Assembly (NCBI RefSeq): GCF_003574835.2 | Contig: NZ_CP063196.1 | Location: forward strand, 3,844,001 to 3,908,000 | Reading direction: 5' to 3' | Length of the DNA stretch: 64,000 nucleotides | Source of the DNA: Thermobifida halotolerans | GTDB taxonomy: Bacteria > Actinomycetota > Actinomycetes > Streptosporangiales > Streptosporangiaceae | Part shown: piece after piece, positions 10,210 to 54,833 of the stretch | Layout: each line of letters starts with the position of its first letter | Numbering within the stretch: the first letter of the stretch is position 1 | The notes under the pieces: model-generated | The model's input: only the letters and a program-made list of their open reading frames with translations | What the model was told of the DNA's origin: nothing | Database searches by the model: none | Made by a program: the position numbers and the translations under genes

Positions 10210-10281
10210 CTGTTCACCTACTCCTCTTCCGTCCTGCGTCTGTGCACCCCGGGGGCCTGGGGGCGACTTCCGTCATCGGCC

Positions 10282-26121: not shown

Positions 26122-26777
26122 ACGTGCGCCTTCCGGTAGTCCACGGTTGTGTAGGGTTCCAGGCCGACCTCCTCGCCGGGAGGCCCCTCGGCGGCGAGGC
26201 GGGCGACGGCGTCGCGCAGGCGGCCGGTGAGCGGCGGCAGGGTGGCGCTGACCGCCGCCACCGCGCCCGCGTAGGGGGAGCCGGAGTCCAGCAGCGCCAG
26301 GCGCAGCAGCTCCAGTCCGGCGCGGTGCTGCAGCAGCAGGCGGGAGCCCGCGTCCGGGTCGACGGTGGCGGCGAACTCCAGCACGACGCACAGGTGGTCG
26401 GGGAGTTCGTCGGTGACCGGGTCGAAACCGGCGGCGCGGTAGGCGTGGGTGAAGGACAGCAGCGCCGTGCCGCGCTTGCGGGTGTCGCCGTAGGCGTAGT
26501 AGGTGAGGTGCAGGCAGCAGCGCCTGCGCAGGTCGAAGATCGCGACGTAGTCCTCGGCGAGCCGCTGCGGCGGGGTGCGCTCCAGGTGGTCGAGGATCTC
26601 GCCGAGTCCGGTGCGCACGGCGTCGGGCAGCTCGGCCGTCGCCGTGCGCAGCAGCGGCAGGTCGGCGAGCAGCCGCTCGTCGGGGTAGTCGAGGACGAAC
26701 GCGGCGATCCGGTGGGTGAGCGCGCGGTCGCGCTCGGAGAGTCGGTGGCGGCGCAGGGCGCGCGGCAGGCGGCTCAC
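26118..26777 (-). CDS. nitrate reductase assembly chaperone (delta)
   Basis: A 219-residue NarJ/NarW-type chaperone. The typical helical start L-D-Y-P-D-E-R-L-L-A-D-L-P appears at residues about 28-40. It is followed by E-D-Y-V-A-I-F-D-L-R-R-R-C-C-L-H-L-T-Y-Y, the family hallmark (F-D-x-x-x-x-x-x-L-H-L-x-Y), and then Y-G-D-T-R-K-R-G. NarJ binds NarG during molybdenum-cofactor insertion and is not part of the final enzyme. The start is GTG 26777 overlapping the narH stop. Confidence 0.92.
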   Translation of the reverse strand: MSRLPRALRRHRLSERDRALTHRIAAFVLDYPDERLLADLPLLRTATAELPDAVRTGLGEILDHLERTPPQRLAEDYVAIFDLRRRCCLHLTYYAYGDTRKRGTALLSFTHAYRAAGFDPVTDELPDHLCVVLEFAATVDPDAGSRLLLQHRAGLELLRLALLDSGSPYAGAVAAVSATLPPLTGRLRDAVARLAAEGPPGEEVGLEPYTTVDYRKAHV

Positions 26778-33324: not shown

Positions 33325-35897
33325 CCTCCACGGACGTGCGCCTGGAACCGCCTCCTCGGCAGCCGCTCCCCGGCGGCCCGCCCCGGCGCTCCTCCTGGCA
33401 CGCCCGCGCCAACGCGGTGGTGCTGGTGTGGCTCGCCCTGGCCCTGGCCGCCGCGGCACTGGGCGACCCGCTCGCCCTGCCGCGCTGGCTCCCGGTGCAC
33501 CTGCTCCTGCTCGGCGCGGTGACCAACGCCGCGGTGACCTGGAGCGAGCACTTCGCCGTCGCGCTGCTGCGCCTGCCCCCGCCCCGCCCGCGCTGGTCGG
33601 GGCTGCGGCTGGCGGTGCTGAACACGGGGGTGACGGCCGTCCTCGCCGGTGCGGTGGGCGGCGTCCCGGCGGTCGCGGTGGGCGGCGCGGTGCTCGTCGT
33701 CGGCGTCGCCGTCGGGCACACGGCCGTGCTCGCCGTCCGCTCCCGCTCCGCGCTGCACGGGCGCTTCTCCTACCTGGCGCGCTGGTACATCTGCTCGGGG
33801 GCGGCGCTGGCGGTGGGCGCGGCCCTGGGGGCGGTGCTGGTCTCCGGCTCACTGCCGCAGGTGTGGCAGGAGCGACTGCTGGCCGCGCACGTCCACGCCA
33901 ACCTGCTGGGCTGGGTGGGTCTGGCCGTCCTCGGCACGCTGTTCACCCTGTGGCCGACGGTGCTGCGCACCCGGATCGTCGAGGGCACGTCCGCGTGGGC
34001 GCGCCGGTCCCTGCCTCTGGCCGCCGTCGGACTGGTCGGCGCGGTCGGCGCGCTGACCGCCGGAATACGCTGGGCGGCCGTCGTCGGGCTGGCGCTGTAC
34101 GCGGCGGCGGCCGTGCTCGCTCTCGTCCCACTGCTGCGCACCGCCCGGCAGCGACGCCCGCACAGCGGAGCCTCGTGGACGGTGGCGGCCGGAACCGGCT
34201 GGTTCGCCATCATTCTCGCCGCCGACGTCGCGGTTGTCGCGACCCATCCGGCGCACGCGGTCGCCGACGCCCTCGGGACGCTGCTGCCGCCGGTCCTGGT
34301 CGGCTTCGTCGGCCAGGTGCTGCTCGGTTCCCTGATGTTCCTGCTCCCGGTGGTGCTGGGCGGCGGACCGGCCACGGTGAAACGCGGCACCGCGCTGGTG
34401 GAGCGGTGGTGGCTGCCGCGCCTGATCGCGGTCAACGCGGCGGTGCCGCTGACCGTCCTGCCCGTGCCGCCGTGGGCGGAGACGTCCGCCTGGGCGCTGC
34501 TGCTGGCCGGGCTCACCGTGTCCGTGGCGCTGCTCGCGGCGGCGTTCCTGCGCTCGCGCGGCCTCACCTGGCACACCCCCTCCCCCGCGGTGGTCGGGAC
34601 GGCGCTCGGCGCGGCGCTGAGCGCGGTCGCGATCGGGGTGGCGGGCAGCGGGCTCGGCCCCGCAACCGAGACCGAACCGGTCGCGGCCACCGGCGGGACG
34701 CGCACCGTGGAGGTGAGCCTCGGGAACATGACGATCGACCCGGGCGTGGTCAGTGTCGACATCGGCGAGGAACTGGTGCTCCGCGTGCGCAACGACGACG
34801 TCCAGGCGCACGACCTGTACCTGGACAACGGCGCGCGCACCCCGATGCTCGATCCGGGGCAGAGCGCCGTGCTGGAGGTCGGCGTGGTCACCGGCCCGAT
34901 GGAGGGCTGGTGCACCGTCATGGGGCACCGCGCCGCCGGAATGGACATGCGCGTGGAGACCGGCGAGGGCTCCGACGCGGGGACGGACAGCGCCGCGGAC
35001 GGTTCCGTCAGCGGTGCCGAGTCCGCCCACCTGGACCTGTCCGGGGAGATGAGCCCCGACTGGCGGCCCTACGACGCCGTGCTGGAGCCCGCGCCGGGCG
35101 GTACCGAGCACGAGGTGGAGATCCGGGTCGAGGAGACCGAACTGGAGGTCGCCCCCGGAGTGCGCCAGAGCATGTGGACGTTCAACGGCAGCGTGCCCGG
35201 CCCCGTGCTGCGCGGGAGGGTCGGCGACGTGTTCACCGTGACCTTCGTCAACGACGGCACGATGGGCCACGGCATCGACTTCCACGCCGGAAGCCTCGCC
35301 CCCGACGAGCCCATGCGCACGATCCGGCCGGGCGAGCGGCTCACCTACCGGTTCCGCGCCGAGATGGCCGGGGCCTGGCTCTACCACTGCTCCACCGCGC
35401 CGATGCTGCAGCACCTGGGCAACGGCATGTACGGCGCGGTGGTCGTCGACCCGCCGGACCTGGAGCCGGTCGACCGCGAGTACCTGCTGGTGCAGGGTGA
35501 GCTGTACCTGGGCGAGCCGGGCGGCGCCGAGCAGGTCGCGCGGATGGACGCGGGCGAGCCCGACGCCTGGGTGTTCAACGGCACCGCCGCCGGATACGAC
35601 CACGCGCCGCTGGAGGCCGCCGCCGGGGAGCGGGTGCGGATCTGGGCGGTGGCGGCCGGACCGACCAGCGGCACCTCCCTGCACGTGGTCGGCGCGCGGT
35701 TCGACACCGTCTACAAGGAGGGCGCCTACCGCCTGCGCCCCGGTGACGACGGGGGCGCGCAGGCGCTGGACCTGGCGCCCGCGCAGGGCGGTTTCGTGGA
35801 GACCGTCTTCCCCGAGCCGGGCACCTACCCCTTCGTCGACCACGACTTCCGGCACGGCGAGAACGGCGCCCACGGGTTGTTCGAGGTGACGGAGTGA
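33321..35897 (+). CDS. membrane domain-cupredoxin-copper nitrite reductase fusion
   Basis: An 858-residue three-part protein. Residues about 30-445 form about 12 membrane helices with a H-V-H-A-N-L-L-G-W-V-G-L motif (190-201). Residues about 460-545 are a cupredoxin with type-1 copper ligands His497, Cys531, His536 and Met541/543. Residues about 600-858 are a NirK-type two-cupredoxin unit. By alignment to known NirK the type-1 ligands are His650, Cys690, His698 and Met703; the type-2 ligands are His655, His689 and His788, with His841 in the position of the second-domain catalytic His region, and Asp653 as catalytic Asp. All ligands are present, so it should reduce nitrite to NO outside the membrane. 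The membrane domain may feed electrons through the extra cupredoxin. Confidence 0.88.
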   Translation: MTSTDVRLEPPPRQPLPGGPPRRSSWHARANAVVLVWLALALAAAALGDPLALPRWLPVHLLLLGAVTNAAVTWSEHFAVALLRLPPPRPRWSGLRLAVLNTGVTAVLAGAVGGVPAVAVGGAVLVVGVAVGHTAVLAVRSRSALHGRFSYLARWYICSGAALAVGAALGAVLVSGSLPQVWQERLLAAHVHANLLGWVGLAVLGTLFTLWPTVLRTRIVEGTSAWARRSLPLAAVGLVGAVGALTAGIRWAAVVGLALYAAAAVLALVPLLRTARQRRPHSGASWTVAAGTGWFAIILAADVAVVATHPAHAVADALGTLLPPVLVGFVGQVLLGSLMFLLPVVLGGGPATVKRGTALVERWWLPRLIAVNAAVPLTVLPVPPWAETSAWALLLAGLTVSVALLAAAFLRSRGLTWHTPSPAVVGTALGAALSAVAIGVAGSGLGPATETEPVAATGGTRTVEVSLGNMTIDPGVVSVDIGEELVLRVRNDDVQAHDLYLDNGARTPMLDPGQSAVLEVGVVTGPMEGWCTVMGHRAAGMDMRVETGEGSDAGTDSAADGSVSGAESAHLDLSGEMSPDWRPYDAVLEPAPGGTEHEVEIRVEETELEVAPGVRQSMWTFNGSVPGPVLRGRVGDVFTVTFVNDGTMGHGIDFHAGSLAPDEPMRTIRPGERLTYRFRAEMAGAWLYHCSTAPMLQHLGNGMYGAVVVDPPDLEPVDREYLLVQGELYLGEPGGAEQVARMDAGEPDAWVFNGTAAGYDHAPLEAAAGERVRIWAVAAGPTSGTSLHVVGARFDTVYKEGAYRLRPGDDGGAQALDLAPAQGGFVETVFPEPGTYPFVDHDFRHGENGAHGLFEVTE

Positions 35898-42990: not shown

Positions 42991-44526
42991 TCAGCCGTCC
43001 GCCTCCGCCGCCAGCGCGATGGCCAGGGCGAGCCGGGTACGCGGGCTGTCCAGGTCGACGTGCACCGCCTCGGCCATGCGCCGCATCCGGTAGCGGACGG
43101 TGTTGGGGTGCACGCCCAGCAGGTCGGCGGCGGCCCGGTGGTCCCCCAGCGCGTCGAACCAGGCGCGCAGCGTCTCGACGTAGCGGGTTCCGTTCTCGCG
43201 GTCGTGGCGGGCGAGTGCGGCGACCGGGTTCGCGGCGGGCACGCGCCCGGAGGCCGCCGCCCTGCGCAGCCGTTCCAGCAGGATCTCGTCCCAGGACTCG
43301 TCGTAGACGACGGCGTGCTCGGAACGGGGGCGAGCGGCGTGCAGGGCCAGGCTCTCGTCGGCCTCCTGGCGGCTCTGCGGGAGCCGGTCGAGTCCGACGG
43401 CGCCACCGATTCCGGCGTGCACCACCACGTCGCCCGGGGTGTCGGCGACCACCCCCGCCACCCAGTCGCGGGCCCGGTCGGCCGTCCCACCGCCCGGCAG
43501 GACCGTGTAGACGGTGGTGCCGAACAGCGCGCTGCGTCCCGGCCGCGCCCACCCGAACCCGGTGGTGACGTGTTCGAAGGTGAGCAGTGCCGCGGCGTGC
43601 TGGTCGTCGCCGACGTGCGCCTGCAGCGCGACAACCCTGAACGGGCCGGACGGCAGGCCGAGCTGGGCGGTCACCAGCGCGTCGGCTCCGCCCTCCAGCA
43701 GCCGGATCACGCCGTCGGACTCGACCTGGCGTTCCAGGTCGGCGCTGGCGCGGGCGCGCAGCAGGTGCAGCGCCGCCGTTCGGGCGCCGCTCTCCAGGGC
43801 CGCCGCCCGCGACGGCGGCAGCGGCGCGTCGGCGTCGACCCAGATCGATCCGAGCAGTTCGCGTCCCGCGCGCACGGCGACCACGACGCGCCCGTTGAGT
43901 CCGTGCTCGCGCAGCGGCGGCACGAACAGCGGCCGGTCGGACGCCGTCAGGTGGGCGAACACTCCGCGTTCGGCGAGCGCGGCACGCACCTGCCCGGGAA
44001 CCCGCCGTCCCAGGATGGTCCGCGTCCGCGCCCGGTCGGCGTGCTCCTGGAGGCTGGAGTAGGCCAGCACCCGCGACAGTACGTCCTCCACGGTCACCGG
44101 GCCGCCGACCGTCCCGGCGATGGTGTCGGCGAGCGCGAACAGGTCCGTGGGGCCGCGCCCCGCCTCCGTCTCCCGGCCCTCCAGCACCAGTCCGTAGGCG
44201 ACCGCGGCCAACTGGCTCCACGACACCGCGGGGTCGACGGCGGCCACCGCGAGCCCGTCGCGCCGCGCGCGGTCGAGGGCGTCGGCGTCGAGGGGAGGGG
44301 CCGCGCGCACCAGCGCGACCACGGCGTTCGCGGCCACCGCCAGGTCGACCGCCCGCGCCTCGGTCGCGACGCCCACCGCCAGGAAGACGTCGCCGCCGAC
44401 CCGGCGGGGGTCGGTCGGGTCGTGCGTCACCACGCTGCGCAGTTCCGTGTCGCGCGCCCCCGGTTCGCAGTACAGCCGCACTCCGAACCGCCCGAGGACG
44501 TTCACCAGCCGGTCGAGCCTGATCAT
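42991..44526 (-). CDS. PucR-family transcriptional regulator
   Basis: A 511-residue regulator. The N-terminal PucR-type ligand domain is at about residues 15-125. A GGDEF-like middle region follows. The C-terminal PucR helix-turn-helix (about 445-505) reads F-D-A-L-G-D-H-R-A-A-A-D-L-L-G-V-H-P-N-T-V-R-Y-R-M-R-R, the family signature. PucR proteins activate purine, proline or amino-acid catabolism genes in response to the substrate; this one most likely controls the DadA-like gene. ATG 44526 lies inside one arm of a 22-bp perfect inverted repeat, so translation may be controlled too. Confidence 0.87.
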   Translation of the reverse strand: MIRLDRLVNVLGRFGVRLYCEPGARDTELRSVVTHDPTDPRRVGGDVFLAVGVATEARAVDLAVAANAVVALVRAAPPLDADALDRARRDGLAVAAVDPAVSWSQLAAVAYGLVLEGRETEAGRGPTDLFALADTIAGTVGGPVTVEDVLSRVLAYSSLQEHADRARTRTILGRRVPGQVRAALAERGVFAHLTASDRPLFVPPLREHGLNGRVVVAVRAGRELLGSIWVDADAPLPPSRAAALESGARTAALHLLRARASADLERQVESDGVIRLLEGGADALVTAQLGLPSGPFRVVALQAHVGDDQHAAALLTFEHVTTGFGWARPGRSALFGTTVYTVLPGGGTADRARDWVAGVVADTPGDVVVHAGIGGAVGLDRLPQSRQEADESLALHAARPRSEHAVVYDESWDEILLERLRRAAASGRVPAANPVAALARHDRENGTRYVETLRAWFDALGDHRAAADLLGVHPNTVRYRMRRMAEAVHVDLDSPRTRLALAIALAAEADG

Positions 44527-44645: not shown

Positions 44646-45263
44646 TCACCTGCGGTAGCCGTTGAGCAGCAGCTTCGCGATCTGCTCGGCCACCTCGTCG
44701 GCCGACAGCCTGCCCTCCGGATCGAACCAGCGGTAGGACCAGATCGAGGCGCCCAGCAGGGTGGCCGTGGCGACCGCCGGATCGACGTCCAGCAGTTCTC
44801 CGTTGGCCACGCCCTCGGCGTAGAGGCGCTGCATGACCTCGGTGTACTCGCGCTCCCGTTTGCGCATCTCCTTCTCCCGCTCGGGCGAGAGCAGGCCGCG
44901 CTCGTTGTAGAAGACCGTGTTGGCGTCGAGGTTCCGCAGGATCGTCCGGGTGTGCTCGACGAGGAGGGCGTGGACGCGTTCCCCGGGGCTGCCCGGTCCC
45001 TCGGCGATGGCGTGGAACCGTTCGAGCGCCTCGTCCACGATCCCGTTCACGATCGCGAACAGTACGTCTTCCTTGCTCTTGAAGTAGTAGTAGATGGCCG
45101 GCTTCGTGAACCCGATGCGGTCCGCGATGTCGTCCAGCGACGTGACGTGGTAGCCCTTCTCGCGGAACAGCGCGGTGGCGACCTCGATGATCTGGGCGCG
45201 CCGGTCGTTGCCCGTCTGCCCCCGGGTGCGGCTCTGCCGCCTGCCTGTTGTTGCCTTAGCCAT
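44646..45263 (-). CDS. TetR-family regulator
   Basis: A 205-residue TetR protein. The N-terminal helix-turn-helix (residues about 23-68) shows A-T-A-L-F-R-E-K-G-Y-H-V-T-S-L-D-D-I-A-D-R-I-G-F-T-K-P-A-I-Y-Y-Y-F-K-S-K-E-D-V-L in its expected order. The ligand domain has the TetR_C-type ending A-A-L-L-G-A-like stretch T-A-T-L-L-G-A-S-I-W-S-Y-R-W-F. It resembles KstR2/FadR-like TetR proteins that respond to acyl-CoA, but ligand specificity cannot be read. The start is ATG 45263. The azomycin-like operon ends 575 bp away, so control of it is possible but unproven. Confidence 0.83.
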   Translation of the reverse strand: MAKATTGRRQSRTRGQTGNDRRAQIIEVATALFREKGYHVTSLDDIADRIGFTKPAIYYYFKSKEDVLFAIVNGIVDEALERFHAIAEGPGSPGERVHALLVEHTRTILRNLDANTVFYNERGLLSPEREKEMRKREREYTEVMQRLYAEGVANGELLDVDPAVATATLLGASIWSYRWFDPEGRLSADEVAEQIAKLLLNGYRR

Positions 45264-45838: not shown

Positions 45839-47281
45839 TCACCCGATCGGAGGCCCCGAGTACGTCTCGGGCCACCGGCGGCACAGCGCCGCGTACAGCG
45901 CCGCGGCGACCGCGAAGGCCACCGGCACGCTGAGGTCCACTCCTCCGGTCATCACGGCGAGCGGTCCGACGTACATCGAGTTGTTGACCCACAGAATCCC
46001 GCAGACGCTGCCGACCGCGAAGGCGGCGACCGCGCGCGGGTTCACCCCGTTGCGGTACCAGTACCGGCTGTCCCCGGCGCCGTTGCCGGAGCGCAGTTCG
46101 TGCACCGCGTACCGTCCCCGATGGGCGGCGAAGCCCACGAGCATGACGGCGGCCCAGGGGGCCACCACCGTCAGCACCAGCGTGACGAACGCCGCCATCG
46201 AGTCCATCGCGTCGTAGACCACGGCCCCCAGGTAGAGCAGTGTCGCGGCCGCCACCGCCACCACCGCCGTCACCCGCGTCCGGGGAACCCGCCAGAACAC
46301 CGCGTTGGCCGACAGCCCCGCCGCGTACAGGCACAGGGCTCCCTGCGGCAGGGTGCCGACGAACCCGAACAGGATGACCACCGCGGCGAACCACCCGGGC
46401 ACCGCGTCGGTGAGCCCCTGGAGCCACGGGGTCACCGGGTCGGGGAAGAAGGTGGTCACGTACGCGCCGACGAGCAGCGCGACCAGGCAGCTGAGGAACA
46501 TGCCGCCGCCGGTCCAGACGACGGCCCGCAGGTCGCCTCGGGCCGACATGTACCGGCTGTAGTCGCCCTGGAAGGTGGCGTACGACATCGGCACGGCCGA
46601 CGACGCCGTGGCCGCCAGCAGCCAGGTCCGCGTGTGGTCGCCGAGCGCGTACTCCCCGCCCGCGTATCCGGGGTCGAATCCGGGGGCGAGGACGAGGACC
46701 AGTGCCGCGAGCACCGCTCCGCCGAGGATCGCGGTCACCTTGTAGGTGTTGACCAGGGCGTCGTGGCCTCGGACCGCGACCAGCGCCACCACCAGGGCGG
46801 CGAGGGCCATGGCCGCCGTGAGCGCTCCGCTTCCGGTGGGGGTGCCCAGCAGGCGCTCACCCGCGACCATGACCGCGGTGCCGCCGACCCAGACGGTGAT
46901 CGCGAAGAAGCCGAGCGCCACCACGACGGTGATGAGGTTGCTGATCGCCCGGCCGCGCAGCCCGAAGTGGGCTCCGCTGGACATGGGGTCGTTCATGCCG
47001 GTGCGCAGACCGACCCGGACGAGGGGGGCGAGGACCGCGGTGCCCACCGCCACCCCGACGACGATCGACGTGACAGCCGACCACCAGCCCAGTCCGAAGG
47101 AGATCGGCAGCGCGCCGAGGACCACCGTGCCCAGGGAGAACTGGGCGGCGGGCCAGATCCAGGCGAAGTCGGAGGGACGTCCGGTGCGCTCGTGGTCGGG
47201 GATCGTCTCGATCCCGTCGACCCCGCTCCGGGGCGCGGTGCGCGCCCCGGAGCCGAGCGTCCCGTCCTGGGACGTGGTCAT
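45839..47281 (-). CDS. NCS1-family permease, last gene of the azomycin-like operon
   Basis: A 480-residue membrane protein with about 12 helices. It has the NCS1 (purine-cytosine/allantoin) permease pattern: W-I-W-P-A-A-Q-F-S-L-G-T-V-V-L-G near residue 42, then G-M-N-D-P-M-S-S-G-A-H-F-G-L-R-G, and A-T-F-Q-G-D-Y-S-R-Y. NCS1 carriers take up nitrogen heterocycles such as cytosine, uracil or allantoin, sometimes in reverse. In this operon the natural cargo would be azomycin or 2-aminoimidazole, i.e. export or recovery of the product. ATG 47281 overlaps the Rieske gene stop (ATGA). Confidence 0.85.
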   Translation of the reverse strand: MTTSQDGTLGSGARTAPRSGVDGIETIPDHERTGRPSDFAWIWPAAQFSLGTVVLGALPISFGLGWWSAVTSIVVGVAVGTAVLAPLVRVGLRTGMNDPMSSGAHFGLRGRAISNLITVVVALGFFAITVWVGGTAVMVAGERLLGTPTGSGALTAAMALAALVVALVAVRGHDALVNTYKVTAILGGAVLAALVLVLAPGFDPGYAGGEYALGDHTRTWLLAATASSAVPMSYATFQGDYSRYMSARGDLRAVVWTGGGMFLSCLVALLVGAYVTTFFPDPVTPWLQGLTDAVPGWFAAVVILFGFVGTLPQGALCLYAAGLSANAVFWRVPRTRVTAVVAVAAATLLYLGAVVYDAMDSMAAFVTLVLTVVAPWAAVMLVGFAAHRGRYAVHELRSGNGAGDSRYWYRNGVNPRAVAAFAVGSVCGILWVNNSMYVGPLAVMTGGVDLSVPVAFAVAAALYAALCRRWPETYSGPPIG

Positions 47282-47598
47282 GGTCGTCCTTTCTGCCCGA
47301 CGGGCACCACCGCGGCGTCCGCTCCGGTCTTCTCCGCGTCGGCCTCCGACAGGTCGACCACGATCCGCAGCGGATCGCAGCGGGGCCCCGCCAGACGTCG
47401 ACCGTCCCGGATGTCGAAGGTGGACTGGTGCAGCGGACACCTGATGCGCAGCGTCCGGCCGTCCACGTGGCCGAACCTCAGCAGTCCGCGGCGGTGCGGG
47501 CAGTGCGCCTCCGCCAGGATCCTGCGCCCGGCCACCTCGATGAGCACCAGGTCCTCGGTGACCTGCCGCACCACGGGGCCGTCGGCCTGCCCGCTCAT
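47278..47598 (-). CDS. Rieske-type [2Fe-2S] ferredoxin of the azomycin-like operon
   Basis: A 106-residue Rieske protein with both cluster motifs, C33-P-H35 and C54-P-L-H57 (C-x-H…C-x-x-H). It is too short for a terminal oxygenase and is therefore an electron carrier. In this operon it most likely supplies electrons to the RohS-like diiron N-oxygenase encoded next door, with which it overlaps (ATGA). Some azomycin clusters carry a Rieske gene at this place; I do not assign a symbol because I am not sure of the name. Confidence 0.85.
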   Translation of the reverse strand: MSGQADGPVVRQVTEDLVLIEVAGRRILAEAHCPHRRGLLRFGHVDGRTLRIRCPLHQSTFDIRDGRRLAGPRCDPLRIVVDLSEADAEKTGADAAVVPVGQKGRP

Positions 47599-48470
47599 GG
47601 GGCCGTGACCCCGCGCGCCCGGGCGATCGCCGCCTCGTTGGCCTCGTCGACGATCGCGCTGGTGATCTCCACTCCGGCCCACACCTTGGCCGTGTCCAGT
47701 CCGACCTCCTCGTCCATCGCGCGGATCGCGATCCGCATCTGCTGGCTGTGGTAGCTGTCGATGTAGAGGTGCTCGGTGTAGTAGGCGTGCTTGTGGATGC
47801 CCAGGCGTTCCGCGGCCCGCGCGAAGCCGCGGAAGCCGTAGAGCACGCTGGCCTCGAAGTAGGCGTAGGCGCCCAGGAAGTAGTCGGGCGCGGGCGCCCG
47901 ACTGGTCAGCCAGTAGAAGAGGTTGACGTAGGCGAGGCTCTCCGGCCCGGCCTCCTCGACGTAGTGCTCCAGGTCGGTGGACATGCCGAGTTCGGTCAGC
48001 AGGTCCCGGTAGAGCTGGGAGTGCGCCTGCTGCTCGTTGCCGCAGCCGAGTTCGTCGATGAGCACCCGGAACACGGCCATACCGGACCGGTAGGGCAGGC
48101 GGGGCACGATCGGCAGCAGCGACTGCGACTCGGTGAGCCCGTCCACGGCGAACTCGGCCACCACCTTCTTGAACTGCTCCATGGTGGCTTCCTCGGCGAG
48201 GAAGCGGTGGCTCTCGGACTCCCCGATCTCCGCCTCCTCCGCGGCGTGCCGCTCCCGCAGCGCCTTGAGCAGGTCGCCGCGGGTGGCGAAGTGGGGGGCG
48301 CGGCTCTCGAACTCCTGGACGCGGGGGATGATCCAGTTCCGCTCCAGTTCCAGCATCCGCGCGTAGTCCTCGGTGTCGGGCACCGAGCGGTAGTGCCGGT
48401 ACAGCTTCTTCTGGTCGATGTCCGCGCTGCGGTGCCGCGCGTCGGTGTCCCGGGTGGTGGATGTGGTCAT
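47595..48470 (-). CDS. rohS: RohS-like haem-oxygenase-like diiron N-oxygenase
   Basis: A 291-residue helical protein of the haem-oxygenase-like diiron oxygenase (HDO) superfamily. Likely iron ligands by pattern: Glu140 and His150 in I-D-E-L-G-C-G-N-E-Q-Q-A-H, Glu206 in Y-F-E-A-S-V, and His234, Asp238 and His241 in H-L-Y-I-D-S-Y-H. RohS of Streptomyces cattleya oxidises the amino group of 2-aminoimidazole to the nitro group of azomycin. The assignment rests on the complete neighbouring pathway (RohP-, RohQ- and RohR-like genes in the same order) as well as on the fold. Both junctions overlap. Confidence 0.85.
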   Translation of the reverse strand: MTTSTTRDTDARHRSADIDQKKLYRHYRSVPDTEDYARMLELERNWIIPRVQEFESRAPHFATRGDLLKALRERHAAEEAEIGESESHRFLAEEATMEQFKKVVAEFAVDGLTESQSLLPIVPRLPYRSGMAVFRVLIDELGCGNEQQAHSQLYRDLLTELGMSTDLEHYVEEAGPESLAYVNLFYWLTSRAPAPDYFLGAYAYFEASVLYGFRGFARAAERLGIHKHAYYTEHLYIDSYHSQQMRIAIRAMDEEVGLDTAKVWAGVEITSAIVDEANEAAIARARGVTAP

Positions 48471-49267
48471 GCCTGCTCCAGGGAGGGTTGGGGGGTGATG
48501 ACCCCGCGCCGACCGAGTTCCTGTTTGACCCGCGCGTACCAGTCGTCCTCGAAGACGCCGTAGTTCTCGCACACCGCGTTGATCACCTCCTGGCGATCGG
48601 GGGTGGGGTCGACCAGCATGGCGTTGCACAGTCCCGGTTCGAGGTTGGCCAGCGGGCCGACGAAGCCGTCGATCCCGGCGGAGGCGAGCAGCAGGTTCTC
48701 CCACCCCTCGAAGACCGGGACGCCGGTTCCGGCGGCGGCGAGCTTCCGGGTGAACTCGGGGGAGCCGCTGGACTCCTTGACGCCGACCACGCCGGGCAGT
48801 TCGCACAGGCGCAGCATGGTCTCGTACTCGATGCGGTTTCCGGAGACCGCCTCCTCGTTGTAGAGGAAGATCGGGAGGTCGACGCCTTCCCGCAGGGTCC
48901 GGTAGTGCTGGTAGATCTCCTCCTGGGTGATGTCCATGCGGAAGGGGGTGGTCACCACCACCGCGTCGGCGCCCATGGCCCTGGCGAGGCGTGCCCGCCG
49001 CAGGACCCCCTCGGTGTCGGGGAGTTGGATTCCGACCAGCACGGGCAGCCCGTGGGAGTTGGCCACGGTGTAGGACACCATGTCGTGCCACTGCCGCTCG
49101 GTGAGTCTCCAGCCCTCGCCGGAGCTGAGCGTCGGCATCAGCGCGGTGACGTCGGCGTGGACGTACTCGATGAGGCTGACGACGTCCCTCTTGGAGACGG
49201 CGCCGGTGGGGTCGAAGGGGGTGACCAGGGGGACGATGGTTCCGGAGTACACTTCGCTGCTCCTCAC
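48467..49267 (-). CDS. rohR: RohR-like aldolase of the dihydrodipicolinate synthase family
   Basis: A 266-residue (beta/alpha)8 Schiff-base enzyme. The catalytic Lys164 lies in G-V-K-E-S-S-G, and Tyr136 in F-L-Y-N-E. The phosphate-loop-like L-S-S-G-E-G replaces the usual G-T-T-G-E. In azomycin biosynthesis RohR splits 4-hydroxy-2-ketoarginine by retro-aldol reaction to guanidinoacetaldehyde and pyruvate. True lysine-pathway DapA is unlikely given this operon. Start ATG 49267, stop overlapping the rohS ATG. Confidence 0.84.
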   Translation of the reverse strand: MRSSEVYSGTIVPLVTPFDPTGAVSKRDVVSLIEYVHADVTALMPTLSSGEGWRLTERQWHDMVSYTVANSHGLPVLVGIQLPDTEGVLRRARLARAMGADAVVVTTPFRMDITQEEIYQHYRTLREGVDLPIFLYNEEAVSGNRIEYETMLRLCELPGVVGVKESSGSPEFTRKLAAAGTGVPVFEGWENLLLASAGIDGFVGPLANLEPGLCNAMLVDPTPDRQEVINAVCENYGVFEDDWYARVKQELGRRGVITPQPSLEQA

Positions 49268-49758
49268 AACTGGTCGGCGACCACGGTCAGGACGAGGGAG
49301 TCCCGGTAGTGGCGCTCCAGGTGGTCGGGGAAGGAGGGTTCCCAGGCGAGCGGGCCGACCGCCTCGACGGGGAGGTCCGTGCGCGCGGCGAGCCTGGGGC
49401 TGGCGGTGTGGAGCCTGCCGCCGCGGTTGAGCGCCTGGGCCACCGCCAGCCGCTCGTGCGCCGGGAGGCCGTGCAGCCGGGGGTCGTCCCAGGCGGCGCG
49501 CACGTCCTTCTCGTCGTAGCCGACGCGGTGGATCTCCATGTCGGTGTGCAGGCGGTCCATGAACGGGTAGTAGGCGTCCTGCACCTCCCGCGGGTAGCCC
49601 CAGACCAGGTCGTCGCAGCGTCCGACCTGTTCCAGGCTCATCACCACGCGGCCGTCGATCCGGTCGGCGAAGAAGCGCTTGCAGGCGTTGCGGAGTTCGG
49701 CGTCGCGGCTGTGCATGCCCATGAACAGCGCGGCGTCGACGAAGACGTCACCGCTCAT
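49264..49758 (-). CDS. rohQ: RohQ-like cyclodehydratase (PIN-like fold, DUF6190-type)
   Basis: A 164-residue protein. Its secondary-structure pattern and D-A-A-L-F near the N-terminus, S-L-E-Q-V-G in the middle and [19 protein letters not shown] near residue 115 resemble a PIN-like fold. In the azomycin pathway the RohQ protein converts guanidinoacetaldehyde to 2-aminoimidazole. Assignment is by operon position between the RohP- and RohR-like genes and size; sequence identity to a known RohQ could not be checked. Its start (ATG 49758) lies inside the rohP gene by 11 bases. Confidence 0.75.
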
Positions 49759-50980
49759 AGCGCGTCAGCATCCCGCTCATGCGTTCCATGGCCGCGGCGA
49801 AGGTCCGGGGCTCGCGCGCCAGGGCCAGTCGGACGAACCGCTCCCCCAGGGCCGGGCTGTTCCAGTAGAAGTAGGTGCCGGGCAGGACGTAGATCTCCTC
49901 CTTGAAGAGGTCCTCCTGCAACTGCGACGCGGTCAGTTCCTCCGATTTGATCCGGAACCAGGCGACGCTGGTCCCCACCACCGGTTTCTGGTATTCCAGG
50001 ACGGCGCCGTCCAGGGCGCTTCGCGCCTCATCGTTGTTCTGGGTGATGACTTCGCGCACCGAGGCGAAACCGTCCTGGATCGAGTCCTCGACATATTGGG
50101 TGACCATGTTGAGGACGAATGGCGAGACGTTGAGCAGCACACTGGTGTGCAGGTTGTAGACCTCGTTGTGGATATTCCTGCTCGCGGTGAGCATCGCGCA
50201 TTTGGCGTCCTGGATCGGCCAGGTTTTTCCGGTGTCCTCGATCACCATGTAGGTGACGCCGGACTCCTCCAGGAGTTCGTAGACGTCGACACGTCCGATT
50301 CTGCTGTCGCACAGCGCGAAAGAGGCGAAGCAGAAGTCGATCATGAGGAGTTTGTCGTGGTCGACGCAGAACCGCACGACTTCCGCGAATCCGTCCAGGC
50401 CGTGCGGCAGCAGGGTGAAACCGGTCGGGTTGTTGGGGTCGACGAGGTAGATCGCGTCGGTTTCCACCTGTTCCTTGAGCCGCTGGTATATCTGCCCGGG
50501 CTCCGCCAGGGTCTCCTCCGGCAGCGGGGACAGCGGGACCTTCATGTTGCGTAGCAGGTCGACGAGGTTGTCGAAGCACGGCTCGATCAGCGAGACCGAC
50601 ATCTCGTGCTGCTTGAGGTACATGCCGGCGACCATGGTGGACACGCTGGCCGAGTAGGAGAGCAGGGTCCGGTCCATGGTGCGCGCGGTCGGCTGCCGGT
50701 GCAGGCGGAAGAAGGCGTCGAGAAAGCGCTTCTCGAAGAACGCCTGCTGGTTGTTCTCGGATTCGTACCACAACTCGGGGAGCCTGGAGACGATTTTGTC
50801 CTGGCTGCCGGACTGACGCTGGTGCGTGTGCGCGTCGGCGAGGTTGAAGCGGGTCTTCAGCGCCTGGATCTCGTGCTGGGTCAGGTCGGCAAACGCGGAG
50901 ACGTCGACGTTGTCGGAGTTTCCACCGATGCCGTTCGGCGTGAACGGAACGGGGTTGTTCTCGGCATGGGCTCCGGGCAT
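49748..50980 (-). CDS. rohP: RohP-like PLP-dependent L-arginine oxidase/hydroxylase
   Basis: A 410-residue fold-type I PLP enzyme. Asp215 (M-I-D-F) contacts the pyridine nitrogen, Lys252 in I-E-D-T-G-K-T-W-P forms the Schiff base, D-P-N-N-P-T-G is at 181-187, and Arg384 (F-V-R-L-A-L) binds the carboxylate. The start N-L-A-D-A-H, the E-P-C-F-D-N-L-x-D-L-L-R segment and V-I-E-D-T-G-K-x-W-P are shared with MppP and RohP, which use O2 to oxidise L-arginine to 4-hydroxy-2-ketoarginine. This is step one of azomycin formation. ATG 50980 has AAAGGAC upstream; it is the first gene of the operon. Confidence 0.88.
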
Positions 50981-51190: not shown

Positions 51191-51216
51191 AGGCATTCCG
51201 GTCCACCGGAATGCCT
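51191..51216. promoter_or_regulatory. 12-bp-arm palindrome upstream of the azomycin-like operon
   Basis: AGGCATTCCGGT and its exact reverse complement ACCGGAATGCCT are separated by CC only, about 210 bp before the rohP start. It lies in an AT-rich stretch (50981-51260) of the 495-bp gap 50981-51475, which has no gene. It could be an operator or, with the T-run at 51233-51240 on the plus strand, a hairpin-type terminator. Confidence 0.7.
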
Positions 51217-51475: not shown

Positions 51476-52165
51476 TCAGGCCGCGGCGCGCAGCACGAGT
51501 TCCTCGTAGGCCTTGGGGTTGTCGGAGCGGATCACCGGCCAGCCGATGCCGTAGGACCCCTGCCAGCCGACGTCGATCCCGGGGTTGGCGTGGTCGGTAC
51601 CGTCGGGGAGGAACAGGTGCGGGCTGCACACGACCCGGTCGGTCCGCGCGATCGCGGCCTGCTCCGACAGCGCCCGCCGGGCCCTGCCGTCGTCCAGCGC
51701 CTCGGCGAGGCGGTCCACGTCGACCGCCCCGGTGGCCTCCGCGGCGTCGAGGATGACCTTGCGGTGGCTGATGCAGCGCGACTCCGCCCAGAAGGCCCGC
51801 CGCAGGGCGAGGTCGAGCTGTTCGGAGGCGCGCGTGCCCTGTTCCTTGGCCGCCTGGACGGCCTCCAGGGCGGGCAGCGTCGTCGAGGGGTAGAGCCAGT
51901 CCTTGGCCTGCCACAGCTGCCAGCCGGCCTCGGGTTCCAGCGCCGCCATCCGACCGACCTCGCTGTCGGTTCCCGGGCGCGGGCTGGGGGCGTCGTTGAG
52001 CAGTTCCAGCGGGAAGGCGCGGTGGTCGAAACTCACCCGCTCCTCCAACCCGAGGCGGGCCCGGGCCTCGTGCAGGCGGTGGACGCCGATGTGCGCGAAC
52101 GAGCACCAGATGTCGGAGAAGACGACGATGACGCCCGGGGGCGGGGTGAGCTGTGCTGCGGGCAT
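51476..52165 (-). CDS. DsbA/FrnE-like thioredoxin-fold oxidoreductase
   Basis: A 229-residue protein of the DsbA-like family. The active-site region is V-F-S-D-I-W-C-S-F-A-H-I-G, with a single Cys in place of the C-x-x-C of FrnE and DsbA. A helical insertion domain sits between residues about 60 and 160. A cis-Pro region follows, V-C-S-P-H-L-F-L-P-D-G. The single-Cys site points to glutathione/mycothiol-S-transferase kappa- or isomerase-like chemistry. ATG 52165 is preceded by GGAGGA. It is the last of three same-strand genes divergent from a TetR gene. Confidence 0.78.
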   Translation of the reverse strand: MPAAQLTPPPGVIVVFSDIWCSFAHIGVHRLHEARARLGLEERVSFDHRAFPLELLNDAPSPRPGTDSEVGRMAALEPEAGWQLWQAKDWLYPSTTLPALEAVQAAKEQGTRASEQLDLALRRAFWAESRCISHRKVILDAAEATGAVDVDRLAEALDDGRARRALSEQAAIARTDRVVCSPHLFLPDGTDHANPGIDVGWQGSYGIGWPVIRSDNPKAYEELVLRAAA

Positions 52166-52194: not shown

Positions 52195-52989
52195 TCAGCG
52201 GTTCGTCTCGTGGGCGTCGAGTGCGGCTTCGAGGTCGAGGTCGGCTCCGGGCAGCCACTGCGGCAGCGAGGGGATCTCCGCCATGGCGTCGACCAGGGCG
52301 TCCACACGGCCCTCCACCGCGGGGCCGTGCGCGCTCAGCAGCCGGGCCGCCCGCAGGTCGCGCACCTCGGCGAGGACGCGGAGGAACCGGTCGGGGTCGA
52401 CCAGCCGCGTCCACGGGGCGATGGCCCGGTTGAGCACGGCGAAGCCCTCGAAGAACTCCTTCTCCGGCAGGTCCTCCAGACGGTTTCCGATCCCCGGGAC
52501 GACGGTGCCGAAGCTGTCGGAGCTGAAGAGAGTGGCGTCGGTGTGCTCGAAGACGGCGAGGGTGCCCGGCGAGTCGAAGGTCGGCGGCCGGAGGAAGCTG
52601 AACTCCCGGTCGCCCGCGCGCAGGCGGCCCCCCGGGTTCACCGTCACGACGCGGTCCGGCGGAATCCGGAACTCCTCCGACAGCCGGGTCAGCGAGATGG
52701 CGTTGGTGACCAGGGTGGCCCGGGGCGCGGCTTCGAGAATCCGCATGAGGCTTCCGGTGTGATCCCGGTCGTCGTGGGTGACGATCACCCAGCGCAGGTC
52801 CTCCGGGTCGATCAGCGGCCACAGCGTCGCTTCGAAGTCCTCCCGGTCGACGGGCATTCCGGCGTCGATCAGCACCGGTTCGCCGCCGCGGAGCAGGAAC
52901 GCGTTCACCGGTTGCAGGCCGAGGTCGGGGATGGGCAGTTCCGAGGGCAGGGCGTGGATGTCCGGGCCCGCCAGGTAGGGCTCTCTCAT
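52195..52989 (-). CDS. metallo-beta-lactamase-fold hydrolase
   Basis: A 264-residue protein with G-E-P-V-L-I-D-A-G-M-P and the metal motif T-H-D-D-R-D-H-T-G-S (H-x-D-x-D-H) at residues about 65-75. Further metal ligands probably lie in F-S-S-D-S-F-G and L-S-A-H-G-P. The plain H-x-D-x-D-H arrangement and the S-S-D-S-F-G strand resemble the flavodiiron-type MBL fold without the flavodoxin part. The substrate is unknown. It overlaps nothing; 16 bp separate it from the transporter gene. Confidence 0.8.
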   Translation of the reverse strand: MREPYLAGPDIHALPSELPIPDLGLQPVNAFLLRGGEPVLIDAGMPVDREDFEATLWPLIDPEDLRWVIVTHDDRDHTGSLMRILEAAPRATLVTNAISLTRLSEEFRIPPDRVVTVNPGGRLRAGDREFSFLRPPTFDSPGTLAVFEHTDATLFSSDSFGTVVPGIGNRLEDLPEKEFFEGFAVLNRAIAPWTRLVDPDRFLRVLAEVRDLRAARLLSAHGPAVEGRVDALVDAMAEIPSLPQWLPGADLDLEAALDAHETNR

Positions 52990-53005: not shown

Positions 53006-54031
53006 TCAGAGCAGTTGGATCGCCAGGGAGCCCGCGAGCAGCAGGACCAGACCGGTGACGCGGGGGACGTTCATCGGGCGCCTGGGCATCCGGAACAGGC
53101 CGTAGTGGTCGATGGCGGCGGAGGTGAGCTGCTGGCCGGTCACGGTGAGGGCGATCGTGACGGCGGCGCCGATGACGGGGATCGCCAGGAACGTGCCGGT
53201 CACGTATCCGGCGGCGCAGGCGGCGCCGAGCCATCCCCACCACGGCATGCTCCGCAGCGGCGCCAGTCGGGGGCGCGGGGTGCGTCCGGTCGTGTACAGC
53301 ACCAGCAGCACGGCCACGATCGTGGCAGTGGCCACGGTGAAGCTGACCAGGGCGACGGCGAGCGGCTCGCCGAGTTCGCCGCGCAGGCGGGCGTTGACCG
53401 CTCCCTGCACCGGCAGCACCGCGCCCGCCAGGATGCCCAGCAGGATCCAGCCGACGCGGCCCACCCCGGAGGGCGCCCCGCCGCCGGGCGCGGGCGCGGG
53501 GGGCGGGGCGGGAGAGCCGCCCGCCCCCCGGTCGCCGACCGCCGCGGCCGCGGGCGCGGGCGCGGGTACGGCTGTGGCCGCGGCGCGCTTCTGGCCCTGG
53601 ATGATGACGACGATTCCGACCAGGACCGCGACGGCTCCGATCACCATCCCCGCGTCGAGCGGTCTGCGTTCCACGCCCAGCAGCCCGAGCAGGTCGAGGC
53701 CGAGGGAGGCGAACATCTGCCCCGCGACGAACAGTCCGACGGAGGCCACCGCGCCCAGGCGCGGGAACAGCAGGATTCCGCAGGTGATGTAGAAGGGGCT
53801 GGCCAGGCCGCCGAGGAGGTGCCAGCCCGTCGCCTCGGGCAGGCGGCCCAGCGCGCCCAGGGCGCCGACGGCCAGGGCGAGGACGGCGAGCAGTCCGGTC
53901 GCGAGCGCCAGTTGGATCGTCGACGCGCCGTAGGGCGTACCGACCGCTTTGTTGAGTTGGAGGTTCGCCGAGGCCTGAACGGCCAGCAGGCAGCCGATCA
54001 GCAGCGCCACAGCGAGAAGAGCGGTGTACAT
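53006..54031 (-). CDS. YdcZ/DUF606-type DMT transporter, internally duplicated
   Basis: A 341-residue membrane protein with about ten helices in two related halves separated by an Ala/Pro/Gly-rich linker (residues about 155-200). Q-A-S-A-N-L-Q-L-N in the first half and P-V-Q-G-A-V-N-A-R-L in the second are the duplicated YdcZ motif. These are drug/metabolite-type exporters. ATG 54031 (GGGAG 4 bases upstream) opposes the TetR gene across an operator-like region, so the transporter is the likely regulated resistance pump. Confidence 0.83.
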   Translation of the reverse strand: MYTALLAVALLIGCLLAVQASANLQLNKAVGTPYGASTIQLALATGLLAVLALAVGALGALGRLPEATGWHLLGGLASPFYITCGILLFPRLGAVASVGLFVAGQMFASLGLDLLGLLGVERRPLDAGMVIGAVAVLVGIVVIIQGQKRAAATAVPAPAPAAAAVGDRGAGGSPAPPPAPAPGGGAPSGVGRVGWILLGILAGAVLPVQGAVNARLRGELGEPLAVALVSFTVATATIVAVLLVLYTTGRTPRPRLAPLRSMPWWGWLGAACAAGYVTGTFLAIPVIGAAVTIALTVTGQQLTSAAIDHYGLFRMPRRPMNVPRVTGLVLLLAGSLAIQLL

Positions 54032-54045
54032 GACTCTCCCGGACA

Positions 54046-54115
54046 CACTAAATGGACATTGTGTCCGTTTAATCTAAGCTGCCACCTGGTAAGCGGTCAA
54101 CATGTCCACTTAGTG
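54046..54115. promoter_or_regulatory. TetR operator-like inverted repeats
   Basis: CACTAAATGGACAT (54046-54059) and ATGTCCACTTAGTG (54102-54115) are inverted repeats with 13 of 14 matches. In between, AATGGACA-TTG-TGTCCGTT forms a compact GGACA-N3-TGTCC dyad, typical of TetR operators. They sit between the divergent transporter and TetR genes. Confidence 0.75.
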
Positions 54116-54140
54116 TTGGATGGTTTGTAGGATGAGGTTC

Positions 54141-54833
54141 ATGAACGACGGCGACGAGCACGGCCGACCGGTCTTCCTGGATCTTCTGGAGGCGAGTCCG
54201 ATCCCGGACGGCGCCGCGCCGACCGGTCCGGGCCGGGGCCACGGCACGCGGGGGTCACCGGGCGCCGCCGGGACACGCGGCAGGGAGCGGGCCGACGCGG
54301 CGCGCAACCGCGCGCGGATCCTGGCCGCCGCCGAGCAGTTGTTCGCCGAGGTCGACCCGCGCACGGTCACCATGGCCCAGATCGCCGAGGCCGCCGGGGT
54401 GGGCCGGGCCACCCTCTACCGGCGCTTCCCCACCCCCGCCGCCGTCGCGGTGGCACTCCTCGACGAGCACGAGCGCCGCCTCCAGGGGGCGATGCTGCAC
54501 GGCCCGCCGCCGCTCGGCCCCGGCGCGCCGCCCGCCGAACGGCTGGCCGCCTTCTACACCGCAGCCGTCGACCTGCTGGAACGCCACCTTCCGCTGGCGC
54601 TGGGCGCGGAGACGGGGCAGCAGCGGTTCGCCACCGGCGCCTACGGGTTCTGGCGCGCCCACGTGCGCGCCCTGCTCGCGGCGGCGGACACCCCGGACCC
54701 GGACGCGCTCGTCGACGTGCTGCTCGGCCCGCTCGACCCGGAGCTGTACCGCCACCAGCGCCACACCGCGGGCCTGTCCCGCGAACGGATCACCCGCGCG
54801 CTGGGCCTGCTGGCCCGGCGCGTCCTCGGCTGA
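54141..54833 (+). CDS. TetR-family regulator of the adjacent transporter operon
   Basis: A 230-residue protein. A ~45-residue Gly/Pro-rich N-terminal stretch is followed by the TetR helix-turn-helix (about 52-98) R-I-L-A-A-A-E-Q-L-F-A-E-V-D-P-R-T-V-T-M-A-Q-I-A-E-A-A-G-V-G-R-A-T-L-Y-R-R-F in order. The C-terminal domain is short and Ala/Leu-rich. I prefer ATG 54141 (AGGATGAGG upstream); ATG 54120 and 54132 are in frame. It most likely represses the divergent transporter gene. Confidence 0.82.
   Translation: MNDGDEHGRPVFLDLLEASPIPDGAAPTGPGRGHGTRGSPGAAGTRGRERADAARNRARILAAAEQLFAEVDPRTVTMAQIAEAAGVGRATLYRRFPTPAAVAVALLDEHERRLQGAMLHGPPPLGPGAPPAERLAAFYTAAVDLLERHLPLALGAETGQQRFATGAYGFWRAHVRALLAAADTPDPDALVDVLLGPLDPELYRHQRHTAGLSRERITRALGLLARRVLG

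Follow-up and report, generated by a model that had tools for sequence, protein, structure and literature searches.

The window analysed here, a stretch of 64,000 nucleotides from Thermobifida halotolerans, appears to contain a complete azomycin operon of the rohPQRST kind, which belongs to a clade distinct from that of Streptomyces eurocidicus and lies beside a separately regulated accessory cassette (we assign this reading a probability of about 0.6). Azomycin (2-nitroimidazole) is the parent compound of the nitroimidazole drugs. A preliminary description of this DNA had placed six genes at positions 45839-50980. All six were found, in the described order and overlapping, and a Pfam search placed each of the encoded proteins above the curated cut-offs; the range itself is too short, since the associated upstream unit reaches about position 54833.

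The roh operon and its core enzymes

All six genes are located on the minus strand. The first four encode (i) a predicted PLP- and O2-dependent L-arginine oxidase (rohP, 49748..50980; 410 aa, Pfam Aminotran_1_2), (ii) a predicted cyclodehydratase with a PIN-like fold (rohQ, 49264..49758; 164 aa, DUF6190, PF19689, 228 bits), (iii) a predicted retro-aldolase of the DHDPS fold (rohR, 48467..49267; 266 aa, PF00701, 110 bits), and (iv) a predicted haem-oxygenase-like diiron N-oxygenase (rohS, 47595..48470; 291 aa, Pfam Haem_oxygenas_2). These are followed by the gene of a Rieske-type [2Fe-2S] protein with the motif CPH...CPLH (rohT, 47278..47598; 106 aa, PF00355, 38 bits) and by that of an NCS1-family permease of the cytosine/purine/allantoin type (45839..47281; 480 aa, PF02133). 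ATGA overlaps had been reported for nearly all of the junctions; such 4-bp overlaps join R/S, S/Rieske and Rieske/NCS1 (three of the five), whereas rohQ and rohR share a 4-bp GTGA, and rohP and rohQ overlap by 11 bp. Most of the 80 roh loci that we compared in other genomes repeat the order P-Q-R-S-Rieske (our home-made gene caller misplaced some starts and in one run missed rohS), so the arrangement is not a matter of chance.

Comparison with the rohP-rohS genes bore out the assignment of the four enzymes. Identities to the S. eurocidicus proteins amount to 66% for RohP, 56% for RohQ, 50% for RohR and 50% for RohS (45% for the Rieske protein), and the naming of S. cattleya as the source of the reference RohP agrees with excerpts of PMC7497351. 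RohP matched the PDB chain 6c3a with 64% identity (phmmer E 9e-165), and its segment EDTGKTWP, which includes K252, is unchanged in all five aligned sequences. Two other identities were rejected for this protein on the basis of NCBIfam scores: MppP of enduracididine biosynthesis (TIGR04462, 178 bits, cut-off 450) and GntC of guanitoxin biosynthesis (62 bits, cut-off 415). For the AlphaFold model of RohQ (pLDDT 96.5), the ten best Foldseek matches were all 9oq8/9c5w, annotated as 'cyclodehydratase RohQ' (TM 0.81-0.87, 33-35% identity), with PIN/VapC proteins next. RohS matched PbrRohS (9pfx, E 7e-48) and SznF (6m9r, E 4e-10); its residues E114, E140, H150, E206, H234, D238 and H241 align with the seven diiron ligands of SznF and are invariant in 75 of 75 RohS sequences. 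RohS therefore carries the full ligand set of the SznF-type 3H/4C class of haem-oxygenase-like N-oxygenases, as this class is given in excerpts of PMC13108848. SaRohS could not be placed among the A-type enzymes (those of loci that share the cassette, operators and core of the window), because the predicted RohS of the Saccharothrix locus L036, with 271 aa, does not fit the published protein statistics.

Judged by these comparisons, RohP, RohQ, RohR and RohS are orthologues of the azomycin enzymes, encoded adjacently in the rohPQRST order. This assignment leads us to predict, with high confidence, a core pathway to azomycin. Because none of the enzymes assayed in the papers that we consulted could be assigned to the roh clade of the window, the identity of the substrates rests on the 50-66% identity given above. 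By analogy with the orthologues, RohP would oxidise and hydroxylate L-arginine, RohR would cleave off a three-carbon piece (pyruvate), RohQ would close the ring to yield 2-aminoimidazole, and RohS, using O2, would convert the amino group of the latter into a nitro group.

Electron supply to RohS and the NCS1 permease

The Rieske protein had been presented as a new redox partner; its gene is almost certainly the known rohT, the fifth gene of the published rohPQRST. This is indicated by printed identities that we were able to reproduce: comparison of the Pseudomonas piscis locus (L087) with that of S. eurocidicus (L040) gave 54.6% (P), 38.2% (Q), 40.6% (S) and 38.8% (Rieske, over 67 residues, with both frames trimmed to the rohS-overlapping start), the values printed for RohP, Q, S and T of CMR5c. 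In the window, as in 76 of the 80 loci, which span several phyla, the gene directly follows rohS, and the cluster ligands CxH...CxxH are present in 74 of these 76 proteins.

RohT is a likely candidate for the electron donor to RohS, with electrons passing from an NAD(P)H reductase to RohT and on to RohS. A reductase with Fer2 and NAD-binding domains is encoded after the NCS1 gene in 20 of the 80 loci, all of them in Streptomyces; in the organism of the window it would be supplied from elsewhere in the genome, which encodes a 53% relative away from roh. It is unlikely that the Rieske protein has instead a structural or sensing role, RohS being reduced by general cell reductants. RohS is active in vitro with PMS, NADH and FeSO4 (excerpts of PMC10724926, on Hedges and Ryan), and the reductase gene adjoins roh in only a quarter of the loci, but the rate reported in the same excerpts for KaRohS is only 5% of that of AurF and PrnD, and such a role would leave the conservation of both the position and the ligands of RohT across phyla unaccounted for. 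A RohT/reductase chain feeding RohS is therefore the probable arrangement. The near-universal Rieske protein, together with the adjacent reductase of the 20 Streptomyces loci, provides a candidate native electron chain for an enzyme that is reported as slow in vitro (excerpts of PMC10724926).

The membership of the permease in the NCS1 family is indicated by Transp_cyt_pur (172 bits, gathering score 23.5); its score with TIGR00800 (ncs1) was 88 bits, below the cut-off of 353, and a search of the PDB returned no match at E 0.01. NCS1 proteins are symporters, which usually import their substrates. The permease is not the new carrier it had been taken for, as one is encoded near roh in 29 of the 80 loci as well as in the window (four Nocardiopsis roh loci are without it). 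Its substrate is probably a small azole or precursor, and the YdcZ-type putative exporter described below is the better candidate for efflux.

The upstream cassette

According to the preliminary description no obvious self-resistance gene was present, which overlooked a candidate unit, TetR-DMT-MBL-DsbA, upstream of rohP. Its minus-strand genes encode a DsbA-like/kappa-GST-like thioredoxin-fold protein (51476..52165; 229 aa, PF01323, 45 bits), a metallo-beta-lactamase-fold (MBL) protein of the flavodiiron/ODP branch with the motif HxDxDH (52195..52989; 264 aa, PF19583 ODP, 47 bits) and a DMT/YdcZ-type putative exporter (53006..54031; PF04657, 210 bits; the ATG start at 54031 is preferred, a GTG at 54046 being possible). 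The TetR-family regulator TetR2 is encoded on the plus strand (54120..54833; PF00440, 49 bits; start uncertain), divergently from the exporter gene, which it adjoins in A-type loci.

Two predicted TetR2 operators were identified in the gap between these divergent genes: the first (54050..54070) is an exact match to AANNGGACANNNTGTCCNNTT, and the second (54091..54111), 41 bp away, differs by 1 mismatch. Paired operator-like palindromes occur at this position in 34 of 34 regions; the pattern, which was derived from the same 34 regions, gave 63 sites in the gap and 1 elsewhere in 758,548 bases. No such operator was detected ahead of rohP in the DsbA-rohP gap in any of the regions searched, and therefore TetR2 does not co-regulate roh through this motif; control of roh by TetR2 was rejected on this ground, and in L044 there is no such gap. 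In the window the gap measures 495 bp and contains a strong hairpin (51191..51216, minus strand; z -3.4), which is terminator-like with no T run after it. Hairpins with an arm of at least 9 are present in this gap in 23 of 33 regions, as against 3 of 330 shuffles. Comparison of the two intergenic regions gave weak matches only.

The MBL protein matched flavorubredoxin (E 1e-10), and its residues H72, D74, D76, H77, D139, D158 and H221 are invariant in the 20 aligned of the 34 proteins found. Flavodiiron NO/O2 reductases have the ligands HxExDH and further His/Asp residues, plus a flavodoxin domain. The window protein shares with flavodiiron/ODP domains the fold family and a carboxylate as the third residue of the metal motif, but it has HxDxDH, Asp139 in place of a flavorubredoxin His, and no flavodoxin domain within its 264 aa, and its identification as such a reductase was rejected. 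The model of the DsbA-like protein (pLDDT 90.8) resembles kappa-class GST, FrnE, DsbM and HCCA isomerase (Foldseek TM about 0.5-0.65), in agreement with the Pfam DSBA domain; PDB sequences gave no match. Unlike kappa-class GST, FrnE and HCCA isomerase of the DsbA superfamily, it has a single active-site Cys (C21, in WCSFAH, with no CxxC) and a second conserved Cys, C180. The active site of the mycothiol-dependent nitroreductase Rv2466c is a CxxC of the CPWC type. The window protein is not of this kind, since WCSFAH has no second Cys and Rv2466c ranked 46th by fold (TM about 0.43).

We tentatively regard the cassette as a putative producer self-protection module. The repressor, bound at the two palindromes, would control the exporter, the diiron-type MBL and the DsbA/kappa-GST-like thiol enzyme, and this unit would export or detoxify azomycin or a reactive intermediate. 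More doubtful is a detailed scheme in which the thiol enzyme acts on the nitro group or on a reactive intermediate, by removal or conjugation, while redox by-products fall to the MBL and azomycin leaves through YdcZ; the whole would be a tolerance module for nitroimidazoles, present in non-producers as well. Two routes to nitroimidazole resistance are described in excerpts of PMC11659421: either NnhA hydrolyses the compound, or the nitroreductases that activate it are lost. In the roh literature that we searched we found no account of the accessory cassette, nor the term 'self-resistance'. The conserved, apparently TetR-controlled unit, beside roh and in roh-less strains, provides named resistance candidates with a directly checkable operator. 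Two other proposed connections fared less well: a PPOX-like gene is indeed present at 37785 (PNPOx_N), but no tie to roh was found here, and the link to nitrogen-oxide respiration is one of proximity only, as narGHJI, although real, ends 13.6 kb away (farther than the 10-kb flanks of the fetched roh loci).

The MBL gene was detected near roh in 33 of the 80 loci and in the window, and the DsbA-like gene in 62, i.e. in 62 of 69 actinomycete loci (three architectures) and none of 11 others, so the latter is not required for synthesis everywhere. Among 392 Streptomyces genomes, 30 carry RohQ; the MBL (at least 68% identity) was found in 18, of which 17 are RohQ-positive, and DsbA (E 1e-70) in 37, of which 29 are (leaving a single RohQ genome without it). 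These counts are not independent, since the MBL-positive loci form one RohP clade and many Streptomyces loci occupy one chromosomal site, and the linkage of roh and the cassette may partly reflect an inherited neighbourhood. In its strict form, with an ancestral roh operon inserted beside an unrelated unit and carried along by descent, this explanation is rather unlikely. It would account for the single RohP clade, for the missing operator before rohP and for the roh-less sites, which keep TetR-DMT-(MBL)-DsbA and are also without NCS1 and the reductase; in L116, L117, L119 and L120 the same Streptomyces site still holds TetR-DMT-DsbA but no roh, as does a different site in L118, and hence this unit may serve another job. 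It does not explain why a related DsbA accompanies roh in two other architectures without DMT and MBL (one with a methyltransferase and a multicopper oxidase, one with a GntR regulator), why in L044, and seemingly in G023 too, the cassette is found on the downstream side of roh, or why, among 60 related genomes including that of the window, the MBL (at least 47%) occurs in the same 3 genomes as RohQ. No relative was found in viral contigs.

The variation of accessory genes with cluster type would also be expected if the end product were a modified nitroimidazole or 2-aminoimidazole, on which NCS1, the MBL or the DsbA-like protein acts, as would the distance of the window RohS from those of S. 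eurocidicus (only 50%) and A. terrae L061 (46%; an A. terrae RohS is reported active in excerpts of PMC10724926). We consider this improbable: the methyltransferase and multicopper oxidase of B-type loci were not found in A loci, the retention of DsbA in roh-less strains fits tolerance better than tailoring, and S. eurocidicus makes azomycin despite the extra genes in its cluster (PMC12713392).

Comparison with known roh loci

In content and order, the five roh genes of the window agree with those of S. eurocidicus ATCC 27428 (L040) and with the Pseudomonas rohPQRST. The surroundings differ: upstream, S. eurocidicus carries MarR, rhodanese and YceI genes where the window has TetR-DMT-MBL-DsbA, and downstream a PRMT5-like methyltransferase, a multicopper oxidase and DsbA where the window has NCS1. 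The A-type loci (in Streptomyces, e.g. L009 and L026, Nocardiopsis, Microbispora and others) share the cassette, the operators and the core with the window, with RohP up to 77% identical; they differ in that the 20 Streptomyces loci add the Fer2/NAD-binding reductase after NCS1 and the four Nocardiopsis loci are without NCS1.

The roh operon and its Rieske protein

The six genes of the preliminary description, which proposed an azomycin operon with a Rieske protein and an NCS1 permease, are all present on the minus strand (45839-50980), each above the Pfam cut-off. According to the sequence reading, consecutive frames overlap by 11 bp at rohP/rohQ and by 4 bp at rohQ/rohR, rohR/rohS, rohS/Rieske and Rieske/NCS1; since every junction overlaps, a single transcript is likely. 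RohP shares 64% identity with the chain of PDB 6c3a, which we take to be RohP of Streptomyces cattleya; MppP and GntC were rejected as identities, the scores lying below both cut-offs. RohQ belongs to DUF6190; in a phylum-wide sample of 396 genomes, 2 contain this family, one of them being T. halotolerans. The best matches of its model (pLDDT 96.5) were the solved structures of RohQ, 9c5w and 9oq8, followed by VapC-type PIN-domain proteins; PDB entries thus already document a PIN-like fold for RohQ. RohS matched PbrRohS (9pfx) and SznF; at the seven positions corresponding to the SznF ligands, residues were invariant in 75/75 RohS sequences (74 loci and the window). PMC7497351 gives S. cattleya as the source of RohP and L-arginine as its substrate.

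Identities of the window proteins with those of the S. eurocidicus locus L040 were 66% (RohP), 56% (RohQ), 50% (RohR), 50% (RohS) and 45% (Rieske protein). For Pseudomonas CMR5c and S. eurocidicus, the accessible portion of PMC12713392 reports 54.6% (RohP), 38.2% (RohQ), 36.1% (RohR), 40.6% (RohS) and 38.8% (RohT), and leaves the nature of RohT unstated. With P. piscis (L087) standing in for CMR5c, comparison with L040 gave 54.6, 38.2, 34.7 and 40.6% for RohP to RohS; the Rieske proteins, with both frames trimmed to the start overlapping rohS, were 38.8% identical over 67 residues (33.6% over 110 residues untrimmed). As only RohR departs from the printed set (34.7% for L087 vs 36.1% for CMR5c), we conclude that L040 corresponds to the published cluster and RohT, almost certainly, to the Rieske protein. 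Among the relatives (the best 80 of 115 RohP relatives from one scan of named genomes), a Rieske match followed rohS in 76 loci, with none in L064 (cut), L075, L079 and L085; 74 of these 76 proteins carry CxH...CxxH, which was not found in L010 and L080. The Rieske protein, previously regarded as a likely new redox partner, is therefore not new, being almost certainly the product of rohT in the published set. Our literature search found no paper testing it as the redox partner of RohS.

Gene-order types and neighbouring genes

The loci (n=81) were assigned to type A (TetR / DMT-MBL-DsbA-rohPQRST, mostly with NCS1; 34, the window counted), type B, as in S. eurocidicus (MarR / rhodanese-YceI-rohPQRST-methyltransferase-multicopper oxidase-DsbA; 20), type C (DsbA-GntR divergent from rohPQRST; 10) or 'other', without any of these arrangements (17); types were assigned from gene presence alone, and 'other' includes some truncated contigs. 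Twenty Streptomyces type A loci have an added reductase with Fer2 and NAD-binding domains. In the RohP tree (77 rows, 4 of the 81 loci lacking RohP in the gene calls and S. cattleya RohP being absent), a 39-row group with support 100/97 held all 34 type A rows, 4 'other' and 1 type C.

In four Streptomyces strains including S. eurocidicus (L040/L070, L042/L072, L046/L066, L037/L069) a type B and a type C cluster occur together; Streptomyces sp. Root431 (L016/L056) has one A and one B, and Kibdelosporangium banguiense (L044/L048) also has two roh clusters. In L075 (Kitasatospora sp. GAS204B, approximately 10001-12450) rohP, rohQ and rohR were found, with no rohS or Rieske match, and from this gene content the cluster is predicted to end at 2-aminoimidazole. 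In L037 and L041 rohR lies almost directly after rohP, and tblastn revealed no RohQ-like sequence. L079, from a MAG labelled Candidatus Peribacteria whose binning may be wrong, contains RohP and RohR homologues and a partial RohQ match on the opposite strand, with no RohS match.

Just downstream of the permease in the window are a PucR-type regulator (42991-44526) and a second TetR (44646-45263), both on the minus strand; no counterpart of either was found directly beside roh in the relatives' gene order. The narGHJI genes (respiratory nitrate reductase) and an MFS transporter, narK-like by position, occupy 24188-32208 (-) and end 13.6 kb from the roh operon. The protein encoded beside the nar genes at 33417-35897 (+) has 826 aa and combines cupredoxin with multicopper-oxidase domains; it may be a copper nitrite reductase with a fused membrane part.

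The cassette with and without roh

The surprise lies in the cassette upstream of rohP (TetR2, 54120-54833 (+), and DMT-MBL-DsbA), not in the six genes. DsbA was found near roh in 62/80 loci, i.e. 62/69 actinomycete and 0/11 other loci (origins from record titles). Four of the seven actinomycete loci without it (L018, L037, L055, L063) lie on contigs truncated at one end or both; the others are L060, L075 and L048, whose strain has DsbA at its second locus, L044. MBL lies near roh in 33/80 loci and the window (nine named genera), and NCS1 in 29/80 and the window. In 60 related genomes, the T. halotolerans genome included, RohQ occurred in three (T. halotolerans, G011, G023), and MBL at ≥47% in the same three. 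Weaker MBL matches (29-35%) came from three other genomes, and G023 had an additional one. DsbA at ≥60% was present in five, two of them without RohQ (G005, G039), and weaker matches (32-54%) in six more. Three congeners gave no RohQ, MBL or DsbA match at the search thresholds, so the block was either gained in T. halotolerans or lost in the congeners.

RohQ was detected in 30/392 Streptomyces genomes. MBL at ≥68% occurred in 18 (17 RohQ-positive; remaining matches ≤40%) and DsbA at E 1e-70 in 37 (29 RohQ-positive, G582 being the sole RohQ genome without it); scoring covered the 6 to 9 leading candidates of each genome, so that a small number of copies may have escaped detection. Fisher p values for association with RohQ (DsbA 1.8e-35, MBL 8.7e-21) are overstated because these genomes are related.

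We read the eight DsbA-positive, RohQ-negative sites and the separate cassette of G746. Four (L116, L117, L119, L120) carry TetR-DMT-DsbA, without MBL, roh, NCS1 or reductase, beside ADH-ALDH genes, which flank many A-type clusters. TetR-DMT-MBL-DsbA was found at the ADH-ALDH site in L115, whose strain has RohQ on another contig, and without roh in L114; L118 has TetR-DMT-DsbA at another site, L122 GntR-DsbA without roh, and L121 DsbA (56%) alone. At the ADH-ALDH site, then, the absence of roh is accompanied by that of NCS1 and reductase, while regulator, exporter and DsbA remain. This pattern would be expected of tolerance genes that non-producers have retained, and just as much of a cassette that is an older neighbour of unrelated function.

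Allowing ≤2 mismatches, AANNGGACANNNTGTCCNNTT has 63 copies in the TetR/DMT gap, in 34/34 regions (two copies in 29), one copy elsewhere in 758,548 bases and none between DsbA and rohP; because the pattern was derived from these regions, finding it there does not test it independently, whereas its absence elsewhere does. The window sites are at 54050-54070 and 54091-54111, and with ≤1 mismatch the genome has one further site (C1:1325148). We infer that TetR2 binds these sites. Hairpins with arms of at least 9 were detected between DsbA and rohP in 23/33 regions vs 3/330 single-base shuffles. The cassette is probably transcribed separately from roh.

Accessory proteins and the known pathway

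NCS1 proteins are symporters, and YdcZ is the plausible exporter. The DsbA-like protein was modelled as the kappa-GST/FrnE/HCCA-isomerase type; across 48 aligned proteins C180 is invariant, and C21 (in WCSFAH) nearly so. It may act in thiol-dependent detoxification. We assign a probability of about 0.6 to the combined reading, i.e. an azomycin rohPQRST operon, an electron path from RohT to RohS and the cassette as self-protection; the value is held there because the putative electron path and protection are part of the claim.

The MBL protein is nearest to ODP and flavodiiron domains, with HxDxDH, D139, D158 and H221 invariant (20 aligned). Its motif carboxylate is diiron-like, but two positions differ from flavodiiron enzymes, so that a flavodiiron-like metal site and function are no more than possible. 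The window operon itself represents the established azomycin pathway and falls in a clade marked by its own accessory genes.
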